Shown here in pieces: positions 23,146-61,890 of a stretch of DNA of 64,000 nt. Both the position numbers and the translations under genes were made by a program. The number at the start of each line of letters is the position of its first letter. The stretch's first letter is position 1. The notes under the pieces were generated by a model, which worked only from the letters and a program-made list of their open reading frames with translations, ran no database searches and was not told the origin of the DNA. Source of the DNA: Nymphaea colorata (lineage: Eukaryota > Streptophyta > Magnoliopsida > Nymphaeales > Nymphaeaceae); the NCBI RefSeq assembly GCF_008831285.2, contig NC_045145.1, positions 14,462,040-14,526,039 on the forward strand, given 5' to 3'.

Positions 23146-23298
23146 AAGCGAGAGAAGCGTGGGGCCGGGAGCCAGGCAGGCCACCGAAGGGCAGAGGATG
23201 CTCGCGCCGGCCAGTGTGGGCCTTTCTCCGGTCGGCCCAACGTGCATGGCCCCCGCGGCAGAACAGTGCTCACCTGTGGCGCCCCGCATTCCTCGCTT
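23146..23298 (+). ncRNA. Hairpin element A (MIRNA-like candidate)
   Basis: 5' arm 23146-23166 (AAGCGAGAGAAGCGTGGGGC) pairs with 3' arm 23278-23298 (GGCGCCCCGCATTCCTCGCT). About 15 of 21 positions pair canonically, including GCGAG with CTCGC, and one more as G-U. The loop is about 110 bases. The 3' arm carries the core shared by all seven elements. The surrounding 250 bases are clearly GC-richer than their neighbours. Small open frames cross it on both strands (23036-23497 plus, 23137-23529 minus), which is expected of GC-rich DNA and not evidence for a protein. No SAUR gene lies in the 2 kb to its left. Confidence 0.4.
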
Positions 23299-25289
23299 CG
23301 CCGCCTGCCTCCTGTGCCGTGCCGTTCCTGCAGCTGCCGGTGGTTCCTCTCTTTCTGTGGGTGCTGATTTACTCATCTGGATCGGCCGGTGCCCGGCGGT
23401 AGGCGCAGAAATGATGAGTTCTTCAATACGGTACCGGTGCCATGCCGTGCTAAATGGCAGTGACATGATGTATATCGTTAGCAAGATACATATATAGTAC
23501 GTGCGTCTGAGTACGTAGTGAAAATACATATATTCTGATCATACAAGTTGGCAATCATGAAGGGTTTCACTGGATGTTACCTTGGTGTCAAGGATCCAGC
23601 GCTCTATAGAGTTCCGGTCTCCAAAAAGAGAGTGGGGGAGAAAGATTTCATGGAAGACTTGTGGGCAGAGGATGTATAATCATAATTTGCACATCTCTTC
23701 GCTGGTTGCTGTACAAACAGTAATTGCCAAACGTACAAATAAATGCTCGGCGATCTTCACAAGTTGGTTAACTATTTTAACGCATTTAAATGCTCGGATC
23801 CAATCATATGTTTAAATATAAAACAGATTTCTATAAGCTCAGCATGCTAAAAGGCCTCAAAACATTGAAACCACATTTGCATAGTTTCCCTCACGAAGAA
23901 TACCGGCTAAGATATTTAGGAAAAGTGTGCTGAGTCCGCACACATAAGCGCGTGCCGACACACACATAATTTGTTTCTTATCTGTGTGTCTGTTTGCAAG
24001 TACATTGGATTAAATCGAAATTTATATGACTTAGGCTAAGTACAACGTGACAATATATATGCAGGAATAACACTAAAATCTTTGAGATTCACACTACATC
24101 CTTGATAATTCAATTTTTTATTATCAATTTTTTATTTTTAACGCTCACAGTAGAATATAACGCATGATAGACGATTTAGGGGTTGTTTGGAAGCAGTGAC
24201 ACTATGTGAGTACTCCATGAATATGGCCGAAAGAGATAAATCTATCATAAACTTTGAGCAGTTTCATGTGACACTCACATAAAATCCTTACAACCAGATA
24301 ACCTTTTAAGGAGTATTTTGTACTTGCCGACTGTACTCCTACTTTGGGCAATTGAAGATACAATATGGAAGCAAATTGATATGCAATAAAGGTCACAATA
24401 TTAATTAGATACATATAATTGTATGATCCTTCTTCTATGGCTTTTTGAATGAAAGAATATTCTTATTGTCATCTCGTTGATCAGTTTTTAGAGATTTATT
24501 TCATTGTTGGGATAAACAATTTTTCAATATTCTGCCTGTATAAAAACTTAAAGGAGGTCGAAAACTTAGTACGGGATTAACTTGTTTATCTCACATTTGA
24601 AGTGGTCAAAGCTTTAAAAAGTGTGTTTTTCTTTGTTTTTTTTTCGCAGTGAAGTTTTTTGAGAAAGTGCAAACCGCAAAGCTTATTTCCACTCGATCGC
24701 CAAGGTTGGCATGTAGCAAATAAAGAGATAACAAACGTGTTGGATATATAAACGCATTGGGAATTAATGTTAAAGACTATTAGGGTTATTTAAATATGAG
24801 ATCACAACTCTTGCAGAATATCATTTAGTCCATTTGCTGTGTCGAGTGGGATTCCGTTCCTATATTCCCGCTTTTCACTCCTAGCTCTTTTGTTGAGGAA
24901 GGGCTTGCCTTTTCGTGTCATTTTGTCCTTCTTATTAGCGATCAGTTTGTGATATTAAATGGCATGAATGGAAAGACGGATGCGCCGATGAACTTCAAAT
25001 TGGAAAACGAAGCATAAAACGGAGACTGTTGAGAAGAAACTCAAAGAGAAACGTCAGAATTCTTTCCTTTACACGATCAGGAAGACAGTTGATTACATAG
25101 TTTAATTTCACTTAATACTCCTCACAATAAGGCCACCAATTAACAGGTGCACCACACAACCTTCTCCATTCTCCCCGTATTAAGCTACTATAGCAAACTT
25201 TAGTTGTACGACGTCCAAGTAATACATAAAGAAGTTAGTAGAATCCGCTACTTGATTAATTAACCACAAAGAGGTCAGAAGCAAAAAGT
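23299..25289. other. Spacer with no recognisable gene
   Basis: AT-rich intergenic DNA between hairpin element A and the first SAUR gene. I see no conserved motif, splice pattern or repeat structure beyond short homopolymers. Confidence 0.5.
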
Positions 25290-25760
25290 TCAGCTACTAA
25301 ACTCACGATCCTCGTTGTGGTAAAAACTCAAGAGCTCCTCCACCATCTCCTGATTCTGGACCATGGGGTCCTTCTTCTTGAGCAGCCAAAGGATGTGCTC
25401 GAAGAGAAAGGATTCGCATGGAAGCCTGATTCCTCCGTTGCTGGAGAAGCCGAATTCTTCCTCTGCCTCCTTCAGCAGGGCCTTGAAGATGGCTTGGCTC
25501 AGGTAACTGAGGGGGATCACGAATCTCCTCATTGTCCCTTCCTTGCCAACGTAGACCGCAAAGCAGCCCTTGGGCACGTGCGAGCAGCAGCGGCCATCGT
25601 TGGCTTCATCAGGGGAGCTGACGGCGCCGTCCTTGAAGGAGAAGACGCATCTGGGGGAGAGAGGCGCGGACTCGAACTTTGGCAGTCGGAAGACACTGCC
25701 TGATGGCTTCAAGCAGTACTTGCTCAGACTCTCAGGCAACCGGGCTCTCTGCAACAGCAT
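25290..25760 (-). CDS. SAUR family auxin-responsive protein, copy 1
   Basis: Intronless 156-residue protein. The SAUR domain (about residues 60-135) is complete: [55 protein letters not shown] and [12 protein letters not shown] proteins are small auxin-induced proteins; known members inhibit PP2C.D phosphatases, which activates plasma-membrane proton pumps and cell expansion. The N-terminal extension (RLPESLSKYCLKPSG, VFRLPKFESAPLSPRCVFSF) is shared with the other three copies here. The ATG at 25758-25760 is preceded by a CT-rich leader and a TATA box. A TGTCTC auxin element on the plus strand at 26291-26296 lies about 530 bases upstream. No subfamily name is given because the window alone does not settle it. 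Confidence 0.95.
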   Translation of the reverse strand: MLLQRARLPESLSKYCLKPSGSVFRLPKFESAPLSPRCVFSFKDGAVSSPDEANDGRCCSHVPKGCFAVYVGKEGTMRRFVIPLSYLSQAIFKALLKEAEEEFGFSSNGGIRLPCESFLFEHILWLLKKKDPMVQNQEMVEELLSFYHNEDREFSS

Positions 25761-25852
25761 GTTTGCTTTCCACCTTCTTACTTAGCGAGCGAGAGAAACA
25801 AAGCGAGAGGGAGAGAAAGAGATGATGTTACGATAGGAACAGTTGAGGTGGC

Positions 25853-25860
25853 AATTTATA
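25853..25860 (-). promoter_or_regulatory. TATA box of SAUR copy 1
   Basis: TATAAATT on the minus strand, 93 bases upstream of the ATG. Between them lies a leader rich in CTCTC on the coding strand, as in the other SAUR copies. Confidence 0.7.
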
Positions 25861-27295
25861 GAGAAACGAACTTACTCTTATGCCACATAATATAGTATTC
25901 AGTATATAGTAGATTTCATCTGCAGAAGCTTTTGAACCCAAGGTTGAATTTGAAGCTCTAACTTCACAGATTTTAATTTGCACTACCATGATCCATATAA
26001 AATGGAAAGACGCTGAAATGGATCGACCAAATTCAGTTCGATCTTTTGCCAATATCATGGCACCTTTGGAATATTATTGGGCATCCTTGGAAGTGTAAGC
26101 ATTTTGCTTCTTTTGGACTCCAGGTTCCCTATTTTATTAACCTCCAATTGAAATCCTCAACATACATAATCCTCAAATTCGGTGAGAAGTTGGTTTGTTA
26201 ATATCGTGTATCATTTCACCTTTAGTTTAGATCTGCAGTTGCTTTGCCTTTTCAAATGTGGAGTTTTGGATGGAAGCAATGACACTGGCCTGTCTCTTTC
26301 TTTGTGCACATCTTCATGGCGACAACTTTTGTCGTCATATTTATGAAGCTCTCTCTCTCTCTCTCACTCAAGAGTTATTTGCCGACTATTTCTGTATATC
26401 TGGTGACGGCTTGTCACCATGCTGTTTAATGAGTCTTCCCTCTTGATCGGCTTTTTCTCTCCCAACAACTTTTTCTCAAAGGGGAAACCCTTAATTCAGA
26501 TAGCCTGTTGGCAGCTCTTGTTTGGGTTGGTTTCAGATGCGGAGTGGCTGAGCTACTCACTCACTGTATATTTGAAGGGCATTTGATATATAAATATTCA
26601 TAGCCAATATGTAAATCATAAGCTAATCTAGCCTTGAGCTCTCCAGGTTCGGTTTGCCGGGCTGTTATAAACAAAGCGGATCAATACAACGGCGACCAAA
26701 CCAACCCCACAGAGTGATCATTTTAATGTGACATTAATAAAATGACGCATTTTGGAAAAGTGTTGTTGGATTGACGAATTTAATTTAGACTATGGATCAG
26801 AGTATCAACACGGTTCGAATTTAATGAACAGTAAAAAATTTGATTTCGTTCGCCAACTGGAATATCTTGGCTGTTCTCTCTTCATACTACAGCATGCTGC
26901 ATCTAGATATTAAGTCTCGAGACGTCGCCGAGCAATCTGGGCCACTCAAATATTTCGGATGCGAACTAGATATTTCTTTGTTAATGCTGTGACTTAATAT
27001 TATTTTCAAGCACAAATCACATGCTTTAATTTTTATCCTCTTTATCCGCATCCACATCCAGAATCTCTCCAACGCATTAAGTTTGTTCCTAATTTTGTCA
27101 TTTTCAACTACTCCAAATATCCATGTTATTATGTCTGGTTCTAATTCTGTCATTTTCGATAAATACTCCAAGTTGATGCTATTATGGTTCGTGTAGGAAA
27201 TTAAACAAGCAAAAACCCCTTGATCATTTATTTTAAAAATTTATGTTCAATACTTTTTTTTTTGCTCTTGCATTAATCATCTCTATTAGGGGTGA
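25861..27295. other. Upstream region of SAUR copy 1
   Basis: AT-rich DNA with a short CT run at 26350-26366. No gene is visible. A minus-strand open frame at 26887-27171 has no recognisable motif. Confidence 0.5.
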
Positions 27296-27760
27296 ACAAT
27301 GAGTCGAGCTACTCGAGCTCGACTTGTTAAAGCTCGGCTCGTGAACGAGTTCGAGCCGCGAGTCATTTGCTTAACAAGTCGAGATCGAGTTTATGAGTCG
27401 CGGGTTTTAGCTCAACACGTAACTGTCGGGTCGAGCTCGAGCCGTACTCAAGTCAATATATTCAAACGAGTTTACGAGTTTGTCGAGCCTTAATTGAGTC
27501 GAGCTCGAACTCAACACATAACGATGAACATCAATTCTATTCAAACGAGTTTGTCGAGCTTTAATTGAGTTGAGCTCGAGCTCAACACGTAACGATGAAT
27601 ATCAATTCTACTCAAACGAGTTTGTCCAGCCTTAATTGAGTTGAACTCGAGCTCAACACGTAACTGCCGAGTCGAGCTCGAGCTACTTCTGTCGAGCTAT
27701 TCTCGAGCTCGAAGTTTCAATAGTCAAGCCGAGTTCGAGCTACTTCTCATCCAGACACGC
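27296..27760. repeat. Tandem repeat rich in CTCGAGCTC, unit about 79 bp
   Basis: The unit contains AACTCAACACGTAACGATGA, AATATCAATTCTACTCAAAC, GAGTTTGTCGAGCCTTAATT and GAGTCGAGCTCGA. At least three consecutive units lie between about 27400 and 27665, flanked by degenerate GAGCTCGAGC sequence. The palindromic CTCGAGCTCG blocks give open frames by chance (27299-27493, 27641-27886), which I do not call genes. It resembles dispersed plant repeats of this composition. Confidence 0.8.
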
Positions 27761-28485
27761 TCATGGTTGGTCCAATATGGAGCGGGGCCTAAGATCAGAT
27801 CCCCAAACGAATTGGATTGTCAAGTAAATGAGTTTTTGGATTGTTATGGTATTTACAGAATTGGCCCACAGCATGAAGCAAGCTGACGTGGGAGCATGTG
27901 ACTAGTGCTGACTAGGCTATAAAAATCTTTATCTTGGAGGAGAGGATATGGCGATTGCAAGTTGCAACCGAGGTGGAGCCCACGCAAGTCCAACGCAAAT
28001 GAGTATGATAAATTTCTCGTCATGCTGTCCAGAATCCATAGAGACCAGGGCGAGCTGTAAAATGGAAAGCGGGCCCAATAATTGGCTTTAGAAGAAGTGG
28101 GTCCGGACCCAGTTGTCCGACTGCGACCAGACCGGCTCGGGCTAATATGTGGCGCTCGTTTTTTGAGTCATAAATCCGCCGAGGCAACATGACCTTTTCA
28201 CAAATGCACATCGACTAGTTTGGCTCAGACGTGCTTTGAAAATGTTGTCTATGTAATCCGAAACTAAAAGAAAAAAGAGGAGCACCGGTAGGCCCTATTG
28301 GCGACGAGTATCACCATCTTAGAAGAAAAAATCATGCCAAATTTAAGTTCTCCTATGATGATATTGATCACTTATCTATGAAAGTTCCTTCATATATTGA
28401 TTACGCTTTTTGTATAAAAAATCAAAGGAGGCCCTCGTCTCTTATAGTCATGAGTTTATGGGTATTCGTATTCGTGTTCACGAGA

Positions 28486-28541: not shown

Positions 28542-28658
28542 GTGGGCGGGGAAGGTGCAGGCCATATGGGCTTGCTCGCCGTCATCCCAACAGCCACGGC
28601 TCCACCCCTAGCAGGATGCAGCCACATGTGCTTGTGTGGCGCTCCGCATTTCGCGCTT
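28542..28658 (+). ncRNA. Hairpin element B (MIRNA-like candidate)
   Basis: 5' arm 28542-28574 (GGGCGGGGAAGGTGCAGGCC, then CATATGGGCTTG) pairs with 3' arm 28619-28658 (CAGCCACATGTGCTTG, then GGCGCTCCGCATTTCGCGC). The inner block CATATGGGCTTG pairs at about 10 of 12 positions with CAGCCACATGTG. The outer block pairs at about 14 of 19 plus G-U pairs. The loop is about 44 bases. Precursor size and arm layout fit a plant MIRNA. It lies 2.8 kb upstream of SAUR copy 1. Confidence 0.45.
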
Positions 28659-33510: not shown

Positions 33511-33679
33511 CAAGAAGGAAAAGAGGGGTCGTCTCGTCGTTGATATGCGACGGCAAATGGGAGAAAGGAAAATGATATCGCATGAGAGGTGCGTGTAGTA
33601 ATCTGCGACATCCATGGCCCCAATACTCCTCTCCCTTTCAACACAGCCACATGCATTTGTGGTCTCCCGCATTTCTCGC
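33511..33679 (+). ncRNA. Hairpin element C (MIRNA-like candidate)
   Basis: The 3' arm is 33644-33679 and includes TTTGTGGTCTCCCGCATTTC. Two alternative 5' partners exist. One is 33552-33586 (GGCAAATGGGAGAAAGGAAA), whose AAATG, GGAGA and AAATG blocks pair with CATTT, TCTCC and CATTT with a 57-base loop. The other is 33511-33528 (CAAGAAGGAAAAGAGGGG), which pairs with the outer part as in the other copies. Block pairing is clear but the bulges are larger than in an ideal miRNA duplex. Confidence 0.4.
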
Positions 33680-35259
33680 TTCTGCTCTCTGATCTTTCTC
33701 CTTCTCTCTCTATTGACTGATCAGTTAGGGCTGCGATGCAGGCGGCCTCAACTACTATATTACTTAATTCTAAAACGGCAACAGATAAATCTATAAACTA
33801 GAGTTTGTAGGTGTTCTTCCCTCTTTGAGTCTAGGAGGTCTTCCTTTTGCAGGTTTGTCTTTCCTGCAAAAGTTCCTGAGATCTTATTTTCAGGAAGCTG
33901 AATGCAATTAAGGGTGTTGAAGTTATACTGTTGTGATAAATGTCTCTGATTCTTACTCTGGAATTAATATATACTTTTCGATTATATGCATCAAATTTTC
34001 AGTACTTTTTGTTATTGAAACTTACAAGGTGTTGATGACACATTTGCTTGTATCGTGTTTGTATGCTCCCCTACTCCACAATGCGAAAACAAAGATGATC
34101 CCAACCTGAGGTAAACAAAATCTCGCAGTTCTTGTTGGTATTTGATAGAGCTGCATGCAGACTCTTGAGAGTCCACGCCAGCTAAATACATTTATATCCA
34201 TGTCGGTAAGAATCGGATCCATGCATTAAATGGAAAATGGCAATAACCCTCAAATGGGATCCAATCAATTCGCAACTCTGATTCAGAAGCCGCAGAAGCA
34301 CTTCGGATACTTTTCACCATAATTCTCATTCCAAATTAACTGTGCAAACAAGAAACCGATATATCTCCATGAACCTTCAGCTACACATACTTATATATAA
34401 TTAGCCGCATTAATTCGCCGTCGTGGCTAAATGTCTCAACAAATGCGTGTAAAGAAACCGTCGGCGTAAATCTTTTTTAGCGCCTTATGAACGAACAAAA
34501 AAAAAAAAAGTAAATCAAAGAGCTGATCCAGGCAAAAAAGAAAAGGGATATTCTAAAAATCTCTTGGTCGGGATGGGCCCAACTTCTCAAACTGGACTCA
34601 CTCAACAGTGGGCCTGGGCTTGCTGCATTGTTCCCAAGCAGATCATTCTATAAGAGATGCGTCTGTCTGTTTCATGGGTGAGACAAGGCGCATAAACGAG
34701 GTCAAGGGCTTGAACTGATTAAATGGCCTTACTACTAACGCCAGTTCCATGACCTTTCGAGCTTGGGTTTCTCTTTCAATTAATTAATTAATTAATTTCA
34801 CGCAAGCACAAAAATCAATTCTACCATTCTCGAGTTGAATCTTCCACTTTTTTATTTCAGGGTCTAGAGACAATAAGATCCGCTTTTTTATTTCAGGGTC
34901 TAGAGCTACGTTAGTATCATACAATAAGATCTCCATGTGCTTCAATTTACACGTAAGACTCACCTCCTTTTCTAACACATGAGTATAACATCCTAACTGA
35001 AAACACTCCAAACAATGCATCTCAACCCACATATTTTAGCTATGGCCCTCAAGGCCTCTAATTAATTAATTTGAAAAAAAAAACAAGCTTGCATTAGCTT
35101 TAGAAGTTATAATTAGCCACTTTGCTCGTGAAAAGATACAACCAAACCAAGGTCATGAAATGAACTTCAACAGTCATATTATACAAAACTCGTTTCTCCC
35201 TAAATTCTTGCCATAGACGGAAAAATAAACCAATATACAAAAGGAAAAACGGAAAAAAA
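33680..35259. other. Spacer before SAUR copy 2, with a small tandem duplication
   Basis: At 34847-34905 the block TTTTTATTTCAGGGTCTAGA occurs twice, 36 bases apart, with AATAAGATC repeated alongside. The rest is AT-rich with no recognisable gene. Confidence 0.5.
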
Positions 35260-35739
35260 TCAAATCAAAGAAACCGACTCATGGGCTGATGGGCCGCAAT
35301 CTTCGTCGCCGTAAAAGTTCATGAGGTCGTCCAGCTTGAGATTCTTGATCATGGGGTCGTCATTCTCGAGCATCCACAGGATGTGCTCGAAGAGAAGGGA
35401 TCCACAGGGAAGTCTGATCCCTCCGCTGCTGGAGAAACCGAATTCTTCCTCTGCTTTCTTCAGCAAGTCCTGGAAGATGGCGTGGTTCAGGTAGCTGAGG
35501 GGGATCACGAATCTCCTCATCCCGCCCTCCTTGCCAACGTACACGGCGAAGCAACCCTTGGGCACAACGTGGAATAAGTCACGGTCGCCAGCTTCATCGC
35601 CGGAGTCCATGTCTTCGCCCAAGAGGACGGACTTCGGCGAACAAAAGGACGATTCAAGATTGGCAACTCGGAAGAGAGCAGGCTTCAATTTCAACTTGCT
35701 CAAGCTCATCTTAGCCAGTCTCCCTCTTTGCAGCAGCAT
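35260..35739 (-). CDS. SAUR family auxin-responsive protein, copy 2
   Basis: Intronless 159-residue protein with an intact SAUR domain: [56 protein letters not shown] and FEHILWML. The N-terminus ([20 protein letters not shown]) is more diverged than in the other copies. The C-terminal tail is longer and ends [15 protein letters not shown], unlike the FYH-type ends of copies 1 and 4. Start at the ATG 35737-35739, preceded by a GAGA run (CT-rich in the mRNA) at about 35770-35785 and a TATA box. Expected role as for other SAURs: auxin-dependent control of cell expansion. Confidence 0.95.
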
Positions 35740-35863: not shown

Positions 35864-35999
35864 GGCCGGAAGAAGGCAATAATGGAAATGAATGCTACAG
35901 ATCCCCTCTTCTTCCTTTGCTTTCATTCACTTTTTTGGTGTTTAACAATTTTTTTATGGAAACCAAAGCATGCAAACTGAGGATACAACATCATATCAA

Positions 36000-36177
36000 G
36001 AAGTCGATGGAAGGAGTCTGGAAAAGCTCACGCGGTCAGTTTCTCTATAAGTAAATCACGAAGTCGATGGAAGGAGTCTGGAAAATCTCACGCGGTGAGT
36101 TTCTCTATTAGTAAGTCACGAAGTCGATGGAAGGAGTCTGGAAAAGCTCACGCGGTGAGTTTCTCTATTAGTAATTC
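36000..36177 (+). repeat. Three near-identical tandem copies of a 60 bp unit
   Basis: The unit begins GAAGTCGATGGAAGGAGTCT, continues with GGAAAAGCTCACGCGGTGAG and ends in TTTCTCTATTAGTAA. Starts are at about 36000, 36060 and 36120. Only a few bases differ, so the amplification is recent. It lies 260 bases upstream of the SAUR copy 2 start, in its promoter region. Confidence 0.95.
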
Positions 36178-36677
36178 AGTATAATGATCTGCATGGGACC
36201 AAGGTCGGTCTAACTCCAATTTACGTATCAAAAACAAGAAACAGAAAAATGGTTTTTTCCCTATGCGTTTATAATTAATTGCATATATAATCATGTTTAT
36301 GAGTCAATAGATGGTTTTCCCTTTTTCAATGCGAAAGATGTGGCCTTCACGATGCATGCATAAAATTAAAGTTGTCACCGTATCGGAGTGAAACATCAAT
36401 TTGGATTTCAGATCATTATCAAACATTGCCAAACATTTTTTTTTTAGCTGTTATCCTCATGATAGGTGGACCAAAGGATATTTTTACAAGTGGATTACTT
36501 CAAGCTAAAAAATAATGGTAGTACATTGTCTGAATCCTTGTGTGCCGTATCATATTTCAATCCAATAACTTCTTTTGTGCATGGCTCGTGGGAAGTGCCA
36601 TTTCATCATAGACACGTACTCCCTCTCCTTCTCATGGCTACACATAACAATAAGAGTTCAGGCACATTGCCAAAGGA

Positions 36678-38008: not shown

Positions 38009-40425
38009 AATAATTTGGAGGATGCAGCTTTCATGGCACGCAGCAAAGGCAGCTGAATCTTCTCTTGATGAACAGTGCACGGTGGCATGGACCCCTTAAA
38101 TGACAGATATCAGAGAACTCAACTTAAGCAAAAGCTAAGGACACTCAACCATGGGAAACGGACTGCTCATTCTGACATTTAAGGAAAATCAGAAGGCCCA
38201 GGGCCTGGGCCCGGTTACTTGATGTTGGCCCCTCCGACTAAACCTAATTCCTCTCAAATTGGCCTTTTCTGAGGGGTGCTTTCTTTTATATAGGGAAAAA
38301 AAAGAGAACTTATTGCATGGATAATTTAACAATGTTGAAACAATTAAAAGGTTGGCAGTCCTTAGCACGAAAGCAACATGACATAAGGGGTGAGGGCCAC
38401 CTTAGCTCTGAATGGTAGCCGTGATATTGAGCATCGCCATGATATAACAGAAGGACTAGCTTTTGTACCATAATCTTTAGGGAAGGACCAGCTCATATAA
38501 GTACTAATTCGATTGCCCACTTCCGCCGGCCGATTAAGTAACTAGTCGGACATTTTGTAGGGTTTCCCGACTGATTATGCACATTTACAAACAAAATAAT
38601 AATGAACAAAAAAACAAATTCAAGCCCACTAATTTATATTTAGAGAGAGACAGTAACAATTACTTTGTGCAACTAGCTAGATAGAATGTGAGAGCATGTT
38701 GTTGGTTTCTCCTACCTACAATGCAAGCAACAGGATTACTATGACCTCCATATATATATACATATATATATATATTTATAACCATGTGCCCATACTGTAA
38801 TGTATACGTTGTTTGGCGTTGATCGGTCCCGCGGAGGAGGAAGGAACGACCGCAGCCCACCAGTGGTGCCCCGCGTTTCTCGCCTCCTTTCTTTCTCCGG
38901 TCGGTACGTCTTGTCTGTCCGTTAGTTTTACGACTCTAGCCCTTCCCATGATAATGTAATCTGTAGGTGGACGGGATCATGTAATTCAAATTTATTATGA
39001 ATTCGGATACGTCATAGATATTTTTTTTTTCATTCACTTCCAAATCCAAATTCCAACAAACCTGAAAATATCCAAGGTATACCCCTAATCTAATATTGGT
39101 GTTTCTTTTGCCACAGTTTGAAGGGGTGAATGATTCGTGAGACCCATCAAACAAAATTTCTTAAATGTTTTTACTGAGGTCAACTTGTATCTTTTAAAAA
39201 TCCTAGCAGGGACTAAACTGATTTAAAAAAAAAATTTTAAATTTTTTAGTAAATGTATTGGATTTTGGTCCGCACAGCCAGCAAGAAATAGGATGTCCAA
39301 ATAATACATGTAGGTCTAATAATTAGTTACGCAAAATCTAGGAAAACGCACCAAGAATAAAGATATAACATGTAAACGTACGATAATTTAATTATTGCAT
39401 TTAGCCGGCTAACTTTATAAGGATTTGTTCCAACGCCCCGCTTTCCGTCTCGAACTTCAACTGTGGTTTGACATGAGCTAGAGAAAACCAAAGAAACTAA
39501 GTCTAGTGAGAACAATTGGACAATCCCAATTTCTAGAACCAAACTTCCCAGGAAAATATGAAGACAGTGCAGAATGAGCAAAGGTAAATAAAATTAGGAT
39601 TCGATTGAAGTGAATGCGATGGAATTCCACCAGAAAATGAAGACAAGATGCTAAGCTCCAAACAAAAAAAAGGTAAAGAAGGAGAAGAGGAAATTTAGGT
39701 TGCAATTTCTTATAGATACCAAATATTGTCAACATAGCTAGGAGAGAGAGAGAGAGAGAGAGAGAGGTTTCACCAGGACAATGCATGCCATTCTGATGCC
39801 ACTACCGTCATAGCGACAAGGAACATGAAAATGATCAATCATGTGTTAATTAATGAATCCAATTCAAATCGGGCATACTCTTAACTATATCTGTTTTTTT
39901 TTTTTTTCATGTTACATATATGGATTTAAATTAGACTTCATGTACAAATGAAGAAAAAACTAAATTATATTTGAATCTGAATCCGAAACCACAATTTGAC
40001 CGTAATCTGAATCCGATTTTTAAATTGACATCCAATTAATTCACCACGGATATTTACATAAAACTAGATGTTAAGAACTGATTTTCAAGATGTATGAATA
40101 TTGATGAAGCTGGATATTTGTGAATATAATTCTAATCGGTATTTATTTAAATTCAAATCTGAAACTAAATCCATTCAGATGTCACTTATTAAATCTGTAA
40201 TCGAGCCAATTTCGTCATCGAATGTTAAAATTTTCCATTTCTAATTTCCCGGAATCATTTTGGTGGGATATCAGATCCAAATCGGATTGACTGAAATCCT
40301 TAAAAACGATCAGGGTAAGACAGTAATTTCTCGTAAAACTTAATGACGACCCTCGAAGACTCAAAAAGCCGATTTTCGCAAATTGTTTTTTAACCCAGGC
40401 AGTTAAATGAAATGTGGTACATGTC
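38009..40425. repeat. Segmental duplication, copy 1
   Basis: This segment is collinear with 42178-45680. Shared anchors are ATTTGGAGGATGCAGCTTTC / ATTTAGAGGATGAAGCTTCC, TTATTGCATGGATAATTTAA, GGGAAGGACCA-CTCAT, GTTGATCGGTCCCGCGGAGG, CTTTCTTTCTCCGGTCGGT and, near the end, ACGACCCTCGAAGACTCAAA. It contains hairpin element D. It is shorter than copy 2, which has gained insertions. Confidence 0.85.
38833..38887 (+). ncRNA. Hairpin element D (compact, degenerate copy)
   Basis: It carries the family core as GTGGTGCCCCGCGTTTCTCG. GGAGG at 38833-38837 can pair with CCTCC at 38883-38887, and CACCA pairs with TGGTG in the middle. The wide loop of copies A to C is missing, so it may no longer be processed like them. 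It sits in segmental duplication copy 1, 3.1 kb upstream of SAUR copy 2. Confidence 0.3.
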
Positions 40426-42561: not shown

Positions 42562-42955
42562 GGATGCCAATAATATTCCCTTAATCATATCCATTTTCTC
42601 AGATATTCACATATTCAAATTCGATACCAATAAGAAAAAGTCATATTTGAATCTGAACTCGAAATTTAATTAGAATCCAATTTTTATATTCATATCTGAA
42701 TCCAAATCCAAAATTTTGCACCATATTTTGCCAATTTTCAAAATGTAATAGCATTAGATACAAGATCTTTGCCTAAAAAAGAATCCAATCCAAATTCAAT
42801 CGGATATTTATGTATATTTGAATCTAAATCAATTCCAATTGGATGTCATTTATTAAATACTAATCTGATCCAATTTCTTAATTATATATTAATTTTTTTT
42901 CCATATTTGATTTTTTGAGATTGGTCGATAGATATATGATATATTGACATTCTTA
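42562..42955. mobile_element. AT-rich GGGATGCCAA-type dispersed element
   Basis: It begins GGGATGCCAATAATATTCCC and interrupts a sequence that is continuous in segmental duplication copy 1. The body is degenerate repeats of AATCTGAAT/TCCAAATC type. No coding capacity. Confidence 0.6.
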
Positions 42956-43039
42956 GGCGAGGGTCACCAGAGCTCTAAATGGTAGCCAGCTCTTGTACCA
43001 TAACCTTTAGGGAAGGACCAACTCATGTAATTAGTCCTC

Positions 43040-43456
43040 AATATATCCGATTTGAAACGGATATCCGACCGATCCGATCCGAAAAAATCGGATATGGATA
43101 AAAAATTAATATTCGATTAAGAAATCGGATCGGATTCAGATTTAATAAATGACATCCGATCGGATTCGGATTCGGATATACATAAATATCGAATCGGATT
43201 CGGATCAGATTCATTTTTAGACAAATATCCTCTATCTAATACTTGAAAAATGGCAAAATCCAGTTCAAAATTCGGATTCAAATATAAATATAAAAATTAG
43301 ATTCAGATCATATTCAGATTGTAAAATCGAATTTCGGATTCGGATATGACTTTGCTTTATTCGAATTCGAATCTGAATCCGAATATATGAATATCCGAAA
43401 AAACGGATATAGTTAAAGATGTATCCGATCCAAATCCAATCAGTTGGCATCCCTAA
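43040..43456. mobile_element. Second AT-rich element, ATCCGATCCG-rich, opposite orientation
   Basis: Hexamer-like ATCGGATTCGGAT repeats fill this block. It ends AGTTGGCATCCCTAA, the reverse complement of the GGGATGCCAA start of the element at 42562, so the two belong to one family in opposite orientation. It also interrupts sequence continuous in duplication copy 1. Confidence 0.6.
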
Positions 43457-43665
43457 TCTCACTTTCCCAACTGATTATACATATATAGAAATAAAATAAT
43501 AATAGACAAAAAACAAATTCAAAGCCCACAAATTCATATTTGGAGAGAGTGACGCTTACTTTTGGCAACTAGCTAGATAGATTGAGAGAGCATGTTGTTC
43601 TTGGTTTCTCCTAGCTAGAGTGCATGCAACAGAGATTACGGTGACTTTTATCTTCCATTTAGGAG

Positions 43666-43675
43666 CTTATATACC
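43666..43675 (+). promoter_or_regulatory. Possible TATA box for hairpin element E
   Basis: CTTATATACC lies about 60 bases upstream of the hairpin and is followed by AAACCATGTGCCC. The paralogous copy D has TATATTTATAACCATGTGCC at the same place. The shared arrangement is suggestive only. Confidence 0.3.
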
Positions 43676-43732
43676 TAAACCATGTGCCCTAGCAGTACAC
43701 CGTACACGTTGTTGGGCGTTGATCGGTCCCGC

Positions 43733-43775
43733 GGAGGCGGAAGCAACCGACGAAGCCACCGCACTTTTCGCCTCC
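43733..43775 (+). ncRNA. Hairpin element E (compact copy)
   Basis: GGAGGCGGAAG at 43733-43743 faces CTTTTCGCCTCC at 43764-43775 and gives about ten base pairs around a 20-base loop. The conserved core is eroded here (CCACCGCACTTTTCGCC). It is the paralogue of D in the segmental duplication; its stem is stronger but its loop is very short. Confidence 0.3.
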
Positions 43776-44399
43776 TTTCTTTCTCCGGTCGGTTCGTCTT
43801 GTCTGCCCATAAGTTTCACGACTCTAGCTCTTCATATTATCATGTAAACTGTAGGTGGACGGGACCCGCCCCGTTTCCACTTCATTAGGTACCACACGGG
43901 TATGACATGCATGTCAATGAAACCAATTCCTTTAATGAGTTTGAAAACCTGGTTTTGGTGACCAGGTTGTCAAGAATGAAAAACTTGGTTTTTATTTCAA
44001 AAATGGGTTTTTGAGGTGTTGAGTAACACCAATGTTTCACAGACGATGAACTTTGTTGAACACCAATGGGTTTTTGAGGTCATCATATAAGTGCTTTGAT
44101 GATGGACGATTTACAGGTTTTACTAAGCACAAAACATGCGTGAGTTGTTTGTTTTCAGCCCATGAAACTGCTTTATGCTTTTATACTTGGTTGATGCTTC
44201 TTTGAGAACACATGAGATGATGAAGAGATTGTAGATTGGTTACATAAATCAAGGTCTGAATGAGATAAAGCAAGCCTGCACGAGTCTGAATGAGATAAAC
44301 CAAGGTTTTAATGCTGATTATGCAAACTATGTAGGTGATGGAATGTCCAGCCTGTGTGGAGGCTTCCAACACTATGAAGTGGCTTCCCTATTTTCTATC

Positions 44400-47516: not shown

Positions 47517-47981
47517 TCATGAGCTCTTCCATTCGTCGCCAACTTCGTGGTAAAGCTCTAAGATCTCTTCCAGTTGTAGATTCTGAACAATCGGATCCTT
47601 GTTTTCGAGTAGCCACAGAATATGCTCGAAAAGAAGAGGTTGGCAGGGAAGCCTGATTCCTCCGTTGGTTGAGAAGCCAAACTCTTCCTCTGCCTTCTTC
47701 AGTAATGCCCTGAAAATGCTGTGGTTTAGATAGCTGAGCGGGATCACAAACCTTCTCATCCCCTCCCCAACGTAGACGGCGAGGCAACCCTTTGGTACGC
47801 GTGAGGAGTGGCCGCCACCATTGGCATCAGCTTCCTCGCCAGATTCTGCGCCTTCCAAGGGGAAGACGCATTTTGGAGAGAGAGGTGGAGGTTCGAATTT
47901 GGGTAGTCGGAAGACAACGGCTGGTGGTTTCAAGTTCCATTTCCTTAGGCGCACAGGCAGACGACCTGTCTGCGACAACAT
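47517..47981 (-). CDS. SAUR family auxin-responsive protein, copy 3
   Basis: Intronless 154-residue protein. The domain reads [55 protein letters not shown] and FEHILWLL. The N-terminal extension (RLPVRLRKWNLKPPAVVFRL, PKFEPPPLSPKCVFPLEG) is closest to copy 4. The open frame continues upstream to 48203, but I chose the ATG at 47981. It gives the same N-terminus (ML...GRLP) as the other copies, and a TATA box falls inside the longer frame. The glycine-rich segment EADANGGGHSS before the domain is specific to this copy. Role as for other SAURs. Confidence 0.95.
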   Translation of the reverse strand: MLSQTGRLPVRLRKWNLKPPAVVFRLPKFEPPPLSPKCVFPLEGAESGEEADANGGGHSSRVPKGCLAVYVGEGMRRFVIPLSYLNHSIFRALLKKAEEEFGFSTNGGIRLPCQPLLFEHILWLLENKDPIVQNLQLEEILELYHEVGDEWKSS

Positions 47982-48092: not shown

Positions 48093-48217
48093 GACGGACG
48101 AAGGCAGTGATCTGAGAAAAAAATCCAGTGTCCCTTGCTTTCTTCTTTCTCTAGTGTTCCTAGCTTTTTTTCTTTCTCTTCCTGTTTTCTTCATCTTTTC
48201 CATTTTTCATGTGCACA

Positions 48218-51121: not shown

Positions 51122-51301
51122 GCGGCAGGAAGCCATAAACAAGGAGGGAGGATAGGGACGAGACGGTGATGAAGTACGGGAAGAGTTGCGGCCCCCATTT
51201 ATAACAGGAAGGAATTATATGGAAAGGGACATGACAGGGAAAGGTCGGCTCTCCGCCATCACCCGTCATGTGCGCTTCTTGTGGCACCCCGCATCCGCCG
51301 C
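51122..51301 (+). ncRNA. Hairpin element F (MIRNA-like candidate)
   Basis: Outer stem: GCGGCAGGAAGCC at 51122-51134 pairs with GCATCCGCCGC at 51291-51301 (GCGGC with GCCGC, GGA with TCC, GC with GC). Inner stem: GACATGACAGGG at 51228-51239 pairs with CCCGTCATGTGC at 51262-51273, about 11 of 12. The conserved core is CTTGTGGCACCCCGCATCCG. It lies 3.3 kb upstream of SAUR copy 3. Confidence 0.4.
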
Positions 51302-54300
51302 TGCTTGGCTCTGCCACCGCTGCTGGTAATTTTCTTGCGTTCTTGTGAAGAAAAAGGGGAGGGATATGTGAAAGTAAAAACCCATGTCGGCAGCACTTTC
51401 ATTGGCACCTAGGGCCGGGAAAGGGAAAGAAATCCGAGCTCAGGTCGTTCATGCGGCCAGTTGCGCTTACCCCTTTCTCAGTAATGATGATAGATTTCCG
51501 ATTTTAGCGAATTGAAATGAACGAAAGAAGTTGAAAGAGTGAATGAGACTACGAGAAGGAGCAAGATGACGCTAGCTGCATCGCATTTCACGACTGCAAG
51601 AGAGCACGAGCCAAGCTGGAACAGCTAGCTTGTCTCCGTTCCCCAATTCTAATAGTTTAAGTGAACAAAACAAATGTTCTTGAAATTATATATGCGGTTG
51701 CTTCATGGAGACTTCATTCTCGATTATCTTTTCGTTGATGATTTGTCGCCCTCGAATAGTGTATGTTCAGCCACAAAAAGGCGGACAGGGAGACTGAATA
51801 CTGTCCGATGTCTATATTAAACAAAACCCTTTTGCACATGCTGGATAACGCACGTTTAATCACACAGAGAGAGCTCAAGATAGTCAGGCGACTTTCGCTA
51901 TATATATATATATATATATGCAACTTGGTGCATGCATATATGTTAAATGACCATACAGACACTTATAATGTCACAAATATCACGAGATCAGAATTTTGTA
52001 TTAAATCCCAACGTAATATGAAAAATGAATTTCCATAATTTTCACATTATTGGACATGTTTTTTTGAAGAGATATTATGCTGATGTCAAGATGTTTGGAA
52101 AAAATCCAATGCAATTGCTTCTAAATTCTGCAATTATGCGGTATGGACAAAGATTAGACATTAGTGTTTAAGACAAACCACAGCAGTGATTACGGTAATC
52201 CTGTCCCCTCACCATCCAAATGGAACTATGACTAATTGTTGACGTTCGAACGTATTGGTCAGATGAAATGGTTCAACGTTTCGAACTGTTACATGTATAT
52301 CGCTTGGGTTAAGAATCATTTTACGAAAAACTTCCTTTATGATGGCAAATGTTAAGTTTTAAGAGAAATTAATCAAATTGTACCCTGATTATTTTCATGT
52401 TGGAGTGGTCAGAATGGTACACCTCTCTCTCTCTTTCTCTCTCTGTCTCTCTCTCATACATGCAGTAATCTTATCTTGTCAGGTCTCACTGTTGAAGTCT
52501 AGAACAAATCCAACCTAAATAATTTCCTCATTCAGTGTCATATATTTCTTATTTTTGAGTTTGCATCGGAATTTGTGTTCGAACTTTGCGTTTTAACCCT
52601 TCTTTTGATTATTGTTTTTACGTTTTAAATTGTCTCTTAACTTTTACTCTCAATTTAGTTTTCCTCATTTTGGCTTCATATATAGATCGCCACCTGGGAA
52701 TCCTGATTCTTGCCCACTTGGTTTTATTTCACGTCTACGAGTGAAGTTATTGCTAATCCTGTAGCCTTCTTTGAAACCAAAGCGAGCAGATACCAGATAG
52801 TAAACATTCTTTTTTCTTTTGTTTTTTGAGCATTTTTTCTATAAGTGGAGTTCCCCCTCTTTTTTAATTTCAGCTTCGTTTCCATTCGTTGGATTTACAG
52901 AAAAGAGGAATAAAAAAATTCACCAGTAGGCTGTAGTGGAGACTTCTGATCTCTAGGATCGATTGCACATTCGTTGGTATCAGGGATGGCCTGAACTTAG
53001 AATCTGCAGTGAGAAACTACAGATGCGCAGCTAAGGTGGTAAATAACAAATTATCTTGCAAACAGACTCACACACGATGTCTCAATTGTCATAAGAACGT
53101 AAAGAGTTTCTCCATTAAAGGAAATGTCATAAGAACCTAAAGAATTTCTCCATTAGAGGCCAACGTATATAACTTGAAATATGAGTTGATCGATCATATT
53201 TTTTTCCATTTTTCTGCATGTTATTGTGTGACCTATTGTTCTTATGTCATGCAGGTGTTTGGATGAATTAAAAATCTAATGCAAATGCTTCTAAAATATT
53301 CTGTTACTAGGCAGTCTGGACAAAGAAAGGGCTCAGGACTTTAATGCCAAGCACTGCATGTGATTGATCCTGTCTGCGCATCGTCCAAATGGAACTGTAT
53401 CTTGGTGTTACTGCACCCACTGGTCACAGGCCATCGAATTTTTAGTTGAATACCATATTTTTTATACATTTATGACACGGCGTACATAAATGAACTACAG
53501 TTCTTTTTTTAACTGGTTGCCGAAACGACACGTTTCTCTTGGTCCAGGTTGCAATTGGCTTATCAAGCCTTTTCTTTTTCCAAGATCTTTTGGAGTTTTC
53601 CCTGGTAAACATTTCTCAACAGTATAATGGCTGTGATCAATATAAGAAACTGAATTGGTACTCTATGTGCAATGTAACTCTTCAAGTTTGAAAAACCCTT
53701 AAAAATTAAATTGACTTGTATACATGGTCTTTTTGAAAATTTTATGTGCAACAAGAGTTTATAATGCAGTGCATGCAAATAAAGTGGTTTAAAAAGGCCA
53801 GCAATGTGCAGGGAATCAAGTGCATGGTAGAAAACAACTAAGCGAATAGGTCGTGTTCAATCTTAGCTTAAGAAAGGGATATTGATTTGGATGATGTGGG
53901 AGAAGCAGCTGCTTGGAGAAGGAGTTACGTGCACGGTGCACAGATTTCAAGGCATGCCAACTATACCTTTGGCCCACTTTTATGGGTGCGTGGCGTACAC
54001 AAAAACTTGTGCACAATGCAAATGTGCAAAGGCCTGTACATATAACTAGGTTCGAGCCACTTGTGGTTCTTGTGTTCTTTATTATGGTGCTCAAAATGCA
54101 TCCTTCCATTGTGGATCCAAGGCTTGTTAAGGCCCCCCTCTCTTTCTATACTCAGAATCAAGAAGGTGCACCATTCTTTTTTGCTTTCACAAGGAAACCG
54201 AACCTCAGCTGCGGAGCAGTCTATGTCACTAAGCCAACCAATTTTGGGTCTAGGAAAGAGACCCACCTTATAAGTCATTTAACAACGCATCCTTTTCTCT

Positions 54301-56573: not shown

Positions 56574-56578
<5 letters not shown>
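51302..56578. other. Long spacer with an old internal duplication
   Basis: About 52079-52262 and 53246-53432 are related: ATGCAATTGCTTCTAAA / ATGCAAATGCTTCTAAA, GGACAAAGA and CATCCAAATGGAACTAT / CGTCCAAATGGAACTGT recur in order. CT and TA microsatellites lie at 52424-52455 and 51899-51919. No gene is recognised. The open frame at 53913-54371 has no motif. Confidence 0.5.

Positions 56579-56626
<48 letters not shown>
56579..56626. repeat. GA microsatellite
   Basis: Uninterrupted GA repeat of about 24 units, 310 bases beyond the stop codon of SAUR copy 4. Confidence 0.97.
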
Positions 56627-56629
<3 letters not shown>

Positions 56630-56936
56630 CTGAAATTCGATTTTATTAAACTTGATAAGAGAAGCCTACAATAGAAGAGCAATAGTAAAGTTTTTTCCAC
56701 TAGTGATTACAAGATATAGGAAAAAAAGTGTGGGAAAACACGAGAATACTCGAAAACACCATAAAATGGTGTACATAACCCACCCTTTTCCCCTCAAACA
56801 AGCCCCTTCCCATAAAGACCATACAAGCAAAAAATATAATACCTGTGGAGTCCCTTGTATATTTGCAGAGAGAACCCGCAGGAAATAAAAAGCAAAGGAA
56901 AAAAAAAAAGGAAGAAGGAAGGAAAGAGGTTCGAAG

Positions 56937-57395
56937 TTAGCAGTTGCATTTGGTTTCTTCATGGTAAAAGCTCAAAAGCTCCTCCACCATCTCGAGGTTT
57001 TGGATCATGGGATCATTGTTTCTGAGTAACCACAAGATGTGCTCGAAGAGAAGGGTTTCGCAGGGAAGTCTGATGCCTCCGCTGATAGAGAAACCGAACT
57101 CTTCTTCTGCCATCTTCAGTAAGGCCTTGAAGATAGGGTGGCTAAGGTAGCTGACAGGGATTATGAACCTTCTGGCTTCCTCGCCTACATAAACGGCGAG
57201 GTAGCCCTTGGGTAAGTAGGAGAAAAGGCCGTCAGGGCCGGCCTCGTCATCCGAATCGACGACATCTTGAAAGGACATGACAGACTTGGGAGAGCGAGGG
57301 GGTGATTCGGATTTGGGTAGCCGGAAAACTTTAGTTGGTGACTTCAGGTTCCATTTGGCTAGGCTCTCCGGCAACCGGCCTTTTGGCAGAGGCAT
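56937..57395 (-). CDS. SAUR family auxin-responsive protein, copy 4
   Basis: Intronless 152-residue protein with a complete SAUR domain: [54 protein letters not shown] and FEHILWLL. The domain Cys after PKG seen in copies 1 to 3 (PKGC) is Tyr here (PKGY). N-terminus [20 protein letters not shown] matches copies 1 and 3. The tail [17 protein letters not shown] is shared with copy 1 up to FYH. Start at the ATG 57393-57395 with a strongly GA/CT-repetitive leader and a TATA box upstream. Role as for other SAURs. Confidence 0.95.
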
Positions 57396-57555
57396 GTCTG
57401 CACCTCCTCGCTTCCTTTTAGAGAGATGGAGAGAGCGAGAGAGAAGAAGAAAGGGAGAGAGAGAAATGGAGGTGGCGGAAGATAAAGGAAGGAGGAGATG
57501 GTGGCGAGAGAAGTAGCGGTGGATGGTGCGGAGAAACCAACAGATGCTGATGGGC

Positions 57556-57562
57556 TTATATA
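57556..57562 (-). promoter_or_regulatory. TATA box of SAUR copy 4
   Basis: TATATAA on the minus strand, about 160 bases upstream of the ATG. The interval is rich in CTCTC on the coding strand. Confidence 0.7.
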
Positions 57563-60500
57563 GAGGAGAAGTGAGAGGGTATTGACGTGTAAGAATTTGA
57601 GAAGCTCTGTTATCTTTATTCTTACATTTTTCTTGCCATGGTCATTCAATATAACTGGAACAACGCAATATTTTAGAAAATAGAAGTACGTAAGAGTGTC
57701 ATGTTGACATGAGAGATCTTTGCAAGTACACTTTATCAGTTTGAATGTTTTAAATGCAGTTCTTTAATTTCCATAGATGTGTTTCTCTTTAATATTTTTC
57801 GGTAGTAGTGCTTCCTCTTTAACATTTTCCTAAAGTGCTGTTTGACTTCCAGTATTTTCCCTGCTGGCGCTGTGTGGTGGGGATGGTCTGGTTCTTAAGA
57901 AGTTCGTGCGGAGAGGCTAAGCCATGCGTGCATGTTTTGCTTGTGAGGGATCATTTCATTTTAGATATAAGAGAATGAATTTGAAAAAGAATAGAAAATT
58001 TCAATTACAATTAAAAATAAAATGCATTTTAATGAATGCCAATGGAATACAGGGCGTGTGTAATGTGGCCAGAATAGGTAGCAAGCTAGAAAAAGGTGGA
58101 CAGGTAAATTTAAATGGCGTCATTTTTGCATTGCTCAAAATTGATATGCTTGCACGTAATGACGTAACCTGTGATTATGCTATGCGAATCCTTTTCTTAT
58201 TAGAATTCATGGATGTTGCTGAAGTGACGAGTTTCCTGGAAGGAGCATTCTTTATATATCATGGTCTATGCCTCCACAGTAAACAGGTTCTGCTCTCTCT
58301 CTCTCCCACCAGTTTTTCCTGGTCTCTAGGCAGTGAAAGCGTAGGGGGGAGGAGCTTTCGTTTTCAAGAGTTCTTTGATTATTCAATGGTTCATTGGATG
58401 TATTCTTCAGGTCCAACTGCATCGGACACTAAGACAGACCATGTGATTTGCCATATCAGAAACCGTAGCTGCATAAAGGGAGATCCTCTTGCACATTTGC
58501 TGGAAGATCTTTGCAATTCATTGAATGATGGCAGAGAATCTCCCTAGGTAGAAGAAAAACATCAAACAGCTAGATCCATGGTGTACACCACAACCAACCT
58601 TTTAAGACGCCGCCCATGAAAGATAAATGCAGAATGCATAGAATCCGAAAGACTATAATTTCAAGTTATGAACTTCATAATGTCGTCTTTCCTTATAAAC
58701 TTAAGTGATGAACTTCATAATGTCGTCCACCAAGATCAATCTTGGCCTACAAAGTATCATATTCCTCGTCTGGCAATTGAGGACATGGCCGATTCTGCCT
58801 CACTTCCACCAAATTATTGGTGGCCAATGGCCAAAAAGGAACAAAAGGCAGTGATTGAAGTTCCAGGGAGACCAGCATTCATCGTGCTAGAAGAACAACT
58901 TGGAAGATTTAACAGTTGGAAGAAGTTATAGGCCAGTGAGGCCTGAGGTGTGATGGTGGACTTTCTTCGATCATCATCGCCATCACTAAATATCGTACCT
59001 CGCATGGGACCAACCTCCTATTGACAACTTGACAAAATTATTCACTTTCTCTTCTTGTCTTTTTTTAATCTCTTCTACACCTTATTTGAATCTAAACACG
59101 GTTTTCTTGTTTTCCAGATTTACTGTACTTATTAGATTCAACATCAGGGGGAAAACAGTAAAGATTTACAATTAACCAAAAAAAAAAAAAGGTTGAATAA
59201 GAATGAATGAGAAAGACAAAAATAACAGTGCTTTTCTCCCGTGGAAGTAAGCCATTTCGGCCAAGCTACCTATATGTGTGTTTCCTTTTCATCTCTCCTC
59301 CAGATTCTATCTATATTTTGTCCTTGTTTGGTCCCTTTTATTTATTTTTCATGGGATAGGAGAAGGGACTTCATGCTATTTGTGAAGCTGGCATTTCAGC
59401 CTTTTGTTACGTAACTAGCATTGTATTGACATATATAAGGGATCAGAGAGTGGCATTTTCATACTCTGATGCTTCTATTGTCGCTTCTTGCAGTGAGATA
59501 TTTACCGCTGACTTCACTTCTAATCTTATGGCTATCCATATCGATGTGTAACATGGAAAACCAAGATCAGAATAGAGGACAGAAGCCTTTGTAACAAAGA
59601 AGTAAAATTGTTTTTTTAACGTGTGAAGACGATATAAGAACAATTCAGAGACTATTCCAGATTTTTTATATTCTTGGTACAAAATCATATCATTAATCAT
59701 AAGGTCCTGTGCATTACGGTCGATGGTAGCAACATCCGCAGAACGTCTGCGTGGGGGTTGCACGCTAAGAACTGTGCTTTAACTATTTACTCTTGTCTGT
59801 TTCTGCAATTTAAGGACATATTTGGAGCGTTTTCAAACTGTTAACACCGTTTATCAAATTCATCCTTGCAATGTAGCATAATAGACGACGCCAAACGGCA
59901 ATTGTAACTGATAATAGTTTGACAGATCTTTTGCAAGCTCCGCATTTAGATCATTATGAACATTAACAAGCATTGATTTAACTCTTTATTCTTGTCTGCT
60001 TCTGCCATTTCAAGACAAATTTGGAGTAGTTTTTGATCCATGAAGGACGTTTACCCTCGTCCAAGAAATTAAATGCAAGATCATTTTCAACAGTAAGTTA
60101 TGTGTCAGCTTGTGATTATTTACACTGTTGAGGTTATTGGATTTTCTAGCAGCTAAGGTCTGGACAGTAAAATCGTTGTCAGATTTGAAGAAGAAAGTAG
60201 TAAGACTCAGGATTGATTGCACCAAATTTAATGCCCGTCGCAATCTTGTCATGGGATCAAGGAGAAAATGGGAGAAAAATGTGGATCATGTCCACCGGCA
60301 TCTTCCACGCTATTTTGGGGCTTTCTTAGGCAATGGGGTCAGATCATGGAAAATGAATCTACCATAATAGGGCGGAGCCAGGAATTTTTGTTGGGAAAGA
60401 AACCTAGGTAAAGTAATTAAATTTTAATCTTTTCAAAAGTTTTAGATTCAAAATTAATAGGCAAATGAATGAGGGGCATAATATATAATGTAGATCGTCT

Positions 60501-61360
60501 GTGCGTGTTTTTTTTTTTTTTCAATTTTTAGTACGCACCGAAAGTTAGGCATTGATATTGTTTTAACAAGGGAACTCTAGCTAATTTAGACTAAGAATTA
60601 TTTGGATACAATCAAACTTGAATTGGACACAGTTAAAGATGTCACGGACGTTAGTTTTGAAGCGTTTTTCCTTATATCAATTGCAAAGTGATTGCTATTC
60701 AATGTTCGGTTGACATTAGTTTTTAGAAATATTGAAGTGCTCATCGTTTTTTGCCATCCCAAACAAAAATCATTCTTATAAAAGTGACCATAAACTACGC
60801 TCATTGATTAATCGGCAAAACCAGCTAGAGAAAAATCCGCTTACAAGTAAAGTAACTTATGTATATGTATATATATGTACATAATCGTAGTTGTTATTTT
60901 ATATGACATAAAAGTTGTATGGGCAATCGATTTTGAAACGATTCACGGTAGAAGTTAAATTGGAATAAAGAAAAACCAAGTTGAAAATTCAAACAACTAA
61001 GAATGCATGTAGAATATTATGATCAGAGCACATGACAACGTTCTAAAAGGAATTATAATATATGGCATATTTTTTTTGTTAAAAGAGCAGAAACAAACAC
61101 TCATTAATAATGATTGATCAAACATTCGCCTGCGAGAAAATAAGTGTCTGATGTCGACGTTGCACTCGCACCTTCCTTCAACTCGTCCACTTTTATCTTT
61201 CCATAAAACCTTCCAGAAAAACCAAGACACCATTTATGTGTTGCGTTGTTTTTACAAAGATCTAACCAAACAAATAAATTCTAAAGAATTGTGAGTCAAG
61301 AGCTTGGATTTGTGCAACATGTTATTCCTATTTTTTCAATTTTCATACCTAAAGTTCATT
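57563..61360. other. Spacer with open frames of unclear status
   Basis: A 207-codon plus-strand frame at 57924-58547 and an 87-codon frame at 58668-58931 are the longest here. Neither shows a motif, signal peptide or domain I recognise, and no splice model joins them convincingly. The block ATGAACTTCATAATGTCGTC occurs twice at about 58668 and 58709. The remainder is AT-rich. Confidence 0.35.
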
Positions 61361-61522
61361 TTTAGGAGCATTAAAATTCTTTACACATGTTAAAATAGTC
61401 TTTACTGATGGTATTGAAAGCCCCTTGATGAAAAGTGTTAAAATTTTTAGGAGCATTAAAATTCTTTACCTATGTTAAAATAGTCTTTACTGATGGTATT
61501 GAAAGCCCCTTGATGAAAAGTG
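61361..61522 (+). repeat. Recent tandem duplication, 85 bp unit, two copies
   Basis: AGGAGCATTAAAATTCTTTA starts at 61364 and again at 61449. The following AGTCTTTACTGATGGTATTG and AAAGCCCCTTGATGAAAAGT are identical in both, so the duplication is recent. It lies just upstream of hairpin element G. Confidence 0.95.
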
Positions 61523-61748
61523 TATGGAATATCCCTTTTTAGACAAGCTTGTAGGGTGCCAAAGTTTGTGAACTTTTTTCTTGCATGCAAACAAAACGTA
61601 TTCCAAGTGAACTGTCCGGACGGGATTGGGCCCAAAGTGGGTAAGCAATACGTGGCAGCGGATAAGGAAGAGGTGTTTGATCGGAACCGGTGCAGCTTTC
61701 TTTGTCCTTTTTTAAAAATTAGGGAGTTCGGTGCTGAGAGCGATGGAC

Positions 61749-61890
61749 GCAGCTGGGAGGTGGGGCATGGGGGACGGATGGAACGGAACGGGCGGGAACG
61801 GGACAGGGTTGGCGCGATCGTGAACACACAAACGAAGTCACGTCTGGTCCATCATGTGAGCTGCCTGCGGACGCCCGCATTTTCCGCTGC
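61749..61890 (+). ncRNA. Hairpin element G (MIRNA-like candidate)
   Basis: 5' arm 61749-61765 (GCAGCTGGGAGGTGGGG) pairs with 3' arm 61874-61890 (CCCGCATTTTCCGCTGC). GCAGC pairs with GCTGC, then after one bulged base nearly every position pairs, three as G-U. The loop is about 108 bases. The core GCGGACGCCCGCATTTTCC matches the family. It lies 4.4 kb upstream of SAUR copy 4. Confidence 0.42.

Follow-up and report, generated by a model that had tools for sequence, protein, structure and literature searches.

A short noncoding core repeated through a SAUR gene array of Nymphaea colorata, a candidate distal regulatory element

SAUR genes and repeated cores at the locus

The window analysed here is a 64,000-nt stretch of Nymphaea colorata DNA (contig NC_045145.1, positions 14,462,040 to 14,526,039 of the forward strand; coordinates below count from its first letter). 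It holds an array of SAUR genes interspersed with a repeated noncoding core of 24 nt, similar to TGTGGnnnCCCGCATTTCTCGCTT, and our subject is this core and its relation to the genes. A first-pass annotation had placed four SAUR genes on the minus strand, and domain searches agreed: all four carry the Auxin_inducible domain PF02519, at E values of 1e-26 to 6e-28. They are S1 (25290..25760, 156 amino acids, E 6.6e-27), S2 (35260..35739, 159 amino acids, E 1e-26), S3 (47517..47981, 154 amino acids) and S4 (56937..57395, 152 amino acids, E 4.8e-27). The limits of S3, from the ATG at 47981, were taken from tblastn; its E value of 6.2e-28 belongs to a longer mechanical open reading frame (ORF) starting at 48203. 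A fifth gene, S5, was found by tblastn and genome search only and lies outside the window, at window-equivalent positions 64238-64681. TATA-like boxes, read by eye, are present near the ATG in all five genes. Pfam returned a single weak, sub-threshold match among ten other window ORFs, and a search of the spacers for SAUR pseudogenes gave, beyond the four window genes, a best nhmmer E of 0.6 and a best tblastn E of 1.2. Directly upstream of S2, at 35996-36178, a 60-bp unit is repeated three times in tandem.

Six good copies of the core are present in the window, all on the plus strand. When the core was modelled as a 24-column weight matrix and both strands were scanned, these copies were the six top hits on either strand, with scores of 29.6-36.9 bits against 19.5 for the next. 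E1 (23275..23298) lies 2.0 kb past the 3' end of S1, and E2 (28635..28658) lies 2875 bp upstream of the S1 start. They are followed by E3 (33658..33681), E4 (38862..38885, 3123 bp upstream of the S2 start), E6 (51280..51303, 3299 bp upstream of the S3 start) and E7 (61866..61889, 4471 bp upstream of the S4 start), the last with the lowest score of the six. In leave-one-out tests with letters shuffled within 500-base blocks (n = 200), five of the six scored above every shuffle, and E7 was beaten by 2 of 200. The 18-mer on which the annotation had built its family, allowed up to 3 mismatches, matched the window four times, always on the plus strand, against 0.03 expected, so the claim that the core recurs beyond noise held up. 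Two k-mer rankings of the window were swamped by chance matches and were not used.

The annotation had counted seven copies. Six were recovered by the matrix and the shuffles; the one near 43.76 kb, E5 (43754..43777, plus strand), proved on self-alignment and reading of the sequence to be a decayed duplicate of E4 that has lost most of the core. The two segments, 38563-38976 and 43463-43864, align at 77% identity over 425 columns, and E5 is best taken as a degenerate by-product of local duplication of the E4 copy. An imperfect palindrome of about 836 bp (42581-43416, 68% self-inverted) adjoins this duplicate.

The genome search added an eighth copy, E8, at window-equivalent position 69723, which is 5.7 kb beyond the window and 5042 bp upstream of the S5 start. 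A family interspersed with SAUR genes, as first described, therefore stands, but with wider limits, because the array runs past the window with S5 and E8. The full order is E1 S1 E2 E3 S2 E4 E5 S3 E6 S4 E7 S5 E8, with at least one element in every spacer. The five genes S1 to S5 have an element 2.9, 3.1, 3.3, 4.5 and 5.0 kb upstream of their starts, distances that all exceed 1 kb. No further element (nhmmer, E ≤ 1) or SAUR gene (tblastn, E ≤ 1e-3) turned up in the neighbouring 10 kb on the left or in about 34 kb to the right of E8.

Retention of the core and its confinement to one SAUR group

Across the six good copies, 12 of 65 aligned columns are invariant, and 11 of these fall inside the 24-nt core; E8 also keeps 10 of the 11. 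Cores are identical at 16-25 of 30 positions between copies. The flanks gave no alignment between copies at E 1e-4 except for the E4/E5 pair, and the other noncoding self-matches of the window were local repeats, many of them at 38-46 kb. The SAUR copies themselves are old, with synonymous divergence (dS) of 0.82-1.75 for pairs among S1 to S4. Because the cores are kept while their flanks are unalignable and the gene copies are old, we infer that the core is constrained, the likely signature of a short noncoding element. A passive origin, in which tandem duplication left a functionless core that persisted through chance or gene conversion, would accommodate both the divergence among copies and the loss of most of the core from E5. 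It would have to account for invariant positions persisting amid such diverged flanks and genes, however, and gene conversion confined to some 24 nt is unlikely; we regard this explanation as improbable.

The core showed no sign of coding. Over both strands and all frames, its divergence was equal at the three codon positions (0.29-0.33). The SAUR coding sequences, by contrast, diverged by 0.20-0.25 at second and 0.36-0.51 at third positions. A minus-strand frame reading roughly S-x-K-C-G-x-P-Q was considered as a conserved peptide and rejected because of this equal divergence across codon positions.

Specificity was assessed by searching the 408-Mb genome (407.8 Mb assembled, with the window on the 25.1-Mb contig C8) with two core patterns, TGTGGNNNCCCGCATTTCTCGCTT and GTGGYGCCCCGCATTTCNCGC, at up to 3 mismatches, with all counts being lower bounds. 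TGTGGNNNCCCGCATTTCTCGCTT gave at least 8 matches, 7 on the forward strand and 1 on the reverse; 5 of these fell in the array, and the reversed control gave at least 7; three of the 8 listed matches had no more than 2 mismatches, and all three were in the array. GTGGYGCCCCGCATTTCNCGC gave at least 13 matches against at least 3 for its reversed control. Five of the 13 listed had 1-2 mismatches and lay in the array, and the other eight, each with exactly 3 mismatches, were on other contigs. For four of those eight hits, the 6 kb on the side where a SAUR gene would be expected contained none. A search of the genome with the S1 protein (E ≤ 1e-5) returned 92 SAUR-like matches, of which the five close ones (E 3e-103 to 1.6e-47) are all within the array; the next match stood at 5.6e-17, and the remaining 87 were much weaker than the array five.

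The good copies of the element thus share the same 46 kb with the five close SAUR genes, and by the searches made neither occurs elsewhere in the genome, which supports well the earlier suggestion of a tandemly duplicated core that travels with these genes. Because pattern hits and close SAUR genes coincide only in the array, the element appears to belong to one SAUR group and not to SAUR genes in general.

Large SAUR arrays with matches on both strands lie on contig C2, at about 17.21-17.31 Mb and 7.02-7.07 Mb, and none of the element-pattern hits among the matches listed is on that contig. A scan of a prokaryote collection with S1 gave one short match, with no element, in a contig of a metagenome-assembled genome labelled Omnitrophota (L001, 599-688). 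This SAUR-like segment of 30 residues, at 57% identity and near the contig end, may be a chance match, contamination from a plant or a genuine relative.

Hairpin RNA or base composition

The annotation had interpreted the copies as a duplicated family of MIRNA-like genes, most with a G-rich upstream partner able to form a stem with the core. There is a likeness to plant MIRNA families in the tandem copies, the single strand and the conserved stretch of about 21-24 nt, and several results lean towards a family of hairpin RNA genes, MIRNA-like or otherwise. The upstream side is G-rich, and purine-rich on average (six-copy means of 0.67 and 0.62 for two 50-base bins that together span -150 to -51), and reasonable stems form at E1, E4 and E7. 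Core-to-upstream duplexes gave low fractions against dinucleotide shuffles, 0.04-0.12 on the plus strand in six of seven copies (0.855 at E6) and, on the minus strand, 0.03 at E1 and 0.005 at E3. In a swap test the upstream side of the same copy was a better partner for the core than those of other copies at p < 0.05 in 8 of 18 upstream settings (0.0097-0.53), compared with 0 of 9 downstream, the settings not being mutually independent. Among 210 folds of 100 nt, each set against 40 shuffles, two plus-strand windows containing the E3 core reached z of -3.7 and -3.0; the lowest value, -4.3, came from an E3 window beyond the core.

The weight of the remaining tests is on the other side. Folding of 250-base intervals against shuffles, which the annotation had proposed as a check, gave no excess stability, with z from -1.71 to +1.53 in 28 folds (seven copies, two windows, two strands). 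The arm signal vanished against shuffles that kept the composition of 25-nt blocks (p 0.10-0.95 for single copies; Fisher p 0.35-0.46 for six copies), and we weighed the swap test below these shuffles because it ignores the block-wise base make-up of each upstream side. A relaxed miRNA-duplex test, using the mismatch and bulge limits in the part of PMC12594335 that we drew on and excluding the overhang, did not separate copies from controls: six of seven copies passed it in one or more of their 28 folds, and so did 41 of 60 GC-matched control sites; the mean number of passing folds was 6.0 for copies and 4.6 for controls. Predicted partners sit at non-homologous positions, about -62 to -88 at E1, -3 to -24 at E4 and -95 to -116 at E7. 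RNAalifold found five local pairs, a covariation term of 0.03 and no compensatory double change, although this is a weak test where flanks align so poorly. Rfam gave nothing at gathering level, its matches (E 0.18 or worse) all lying away from the elements, and 12-mers of the core turned up, in the open-licence literature searched, in two unrelated papers only. Unlike plant MIRNA families, the copies have no conserved partner arm, excess fold stability or covariation. No conserved miRNA/miRNA-star foldback including the core emerged, the swap test leaning the opposite way, and we consider a hairpin RNA gene family very unlikely.

A weaker, inverted copy of the core does occur upstream of E1, about 105 nt from its core (23146..23169, minus strand). 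It is the seventh-best matrix hit of the window, and its score of 19.5 compares with shuffle maxima whose 95th percentile is 17.8 and whose top value is 20.6; no other copy has an inverted partner at this level. Of the upstream partner first described, the average purine richness is borne out, but a specific shared stem is not supported. We conclude that the G-rich partner is mainly an effect of composition, with E1 a possible exception. The inverted pair at E1 also recalls terminal inverted repeats, as if a small dispersed transposable element had inserted repeatedly and the copies were what is left of it. With these two patterns, close copies were confined to 46 kb of the 408 Mb and to one orientation, and the copies share no borders beyond the core, so we rate repeated insertion the least probable of the explanations considered.

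A single canonical G-quadruplex motif occurs in the window, upstream of E7 (61790-61808). G-quadruplexes were rejected as a family feature, this one motif being near E7 only. Just before E7, at 61358-61523, is a recent tandem duplication with an 85-bp period and 98% identity.

A putative distal element of the SAUR cluster

Base composition changes across the element, from purine-rich before the core to C/T-rich at the core, and CpG peaks in the core bin. A purine-to-C/T shift with a CpG peak is found near plant transcription starts. Since the core shows this shift, the main rival explanation is that it serves as promoter or 5' leader of a family of unannotated plus-strand transcripts (long noncoding RNAs or genes for short peptides) interspersed among the SAUR genes. 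The constant strand of the copies would suit such transcripts, as would TATA-like stretches, read by eye, upstream of E2, E4, E5 and E6. Tandem duplication would produce a constant orientation just as well, however; TATA-like words arise often in DNA of this base composition, and none is clear at E1, E3 or E7. Nor is downstream plus-strand sequence shared at E 1e-4 except between E4 and E5, and the core has no codon-position bias. We judge this explanation unlikely, although more probable than the other rivals. Five copies (E2, E3, E6, E7 and E8) have CATGTG/CACATG words shortly before the core; we take these to resemble E-boxes.

The explanation we favour, at a probability of roughly 0.55, is that the core is a paralogous conserved noncoding sequence (CNS) and a 5'-distal DNA regulatory element of the SAUR cluster. 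Such a core would probably be bound by one or more transcription factors. Placed 2.9-5.0 kb upstream of each SAUR gene, it would have been copied, with its orientation unchanged, when the SAUR unit was duplicated in tandem, and it may act as a distal enhancer or a boundary for the five genes. Since TATA-like boxes sit near the SAUR start codons, the element is presumably not the SAUR core promoter and would act at a distance. A more specific proposal is that the elements, with one or more in every spacer, make up an array-specific regulatory or boundary module through which expression of the whole five-gene SAUR cluster is coordinated or partitioned; alternatively, they would be start sites for a family of noncoding RNAs from the plus strand that regulate the SAUR genes on the minus strand. 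We hold either version to be speculative and rather unlikely.

Several points weigh against a distal regulatory role. With about one element per 6.6 kb, the presence of one within 5 kb or so upstream of each SAUR gene is partly expected, and under a model of one element per gene, E1, E3 and E5 are superfluous. None of the 87 SAUR-like matches outside the array adjoins a listed core-pattern hit. The two patterns miss E6 and E7, and equally diverged copies elsewhere would therefore escape them. Conservation, moreover, was compared among paralogs of one genome only; a core kept between paralogs speaks, at the level of sequence, for retention and not for what the core does.

In the part of PMC3708275 that we drew on, the lengths of plant CNSs average about 35-37 bp, with a median of 26-27 bp, and roughly 20% of them are 5'-distal. 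The core would match the 5'-distal class described there because its length of 24-35 nt and its distance both fit: like those sequences, it is noncoding, tens of bp long, more than 1 kb from the gene and an island in diverged sequence (PMC3708275). It differs from the grass CNSs of that account in being recognised between tandem paralogs of one genome and not between orthologs of two species. A second comparison is offered by the PLETHORA BOX1 and BOX2 upstream CNSs, which, in the portion of PMC12545816 used here, control expression, as shown by mutants and reporters. They too are upstream elements kept with one gene family, there a developmental one. The PLETHORA boxes are unusually long, conserved in eudicots and tested, whereas the SAUR core is short and was seen in one genome, as sequence only (PMC12545816).

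No report of this element was found in the open-licence literature searched. SAUR genes have expanded in plants by tandem duplication, and how the copies keep or change their expression has been studied mostly through proximal promoters. What the array offers is a short distal core that was kept while its surroundings diverged and that, within the searches made, is restricted to one SAUR group. It would give a definite target for asking whether a tandem array has duplicated distal regulation of its own.

Two further repeats were noted in the window. Three 71-bp units, arranged head to tail at 27474-27686, are rich in words like GAGCTCGAG and form a local CpG peak. A tandem array at 8001-9519 consists of units of about 255 bp that are 83-85% alike.

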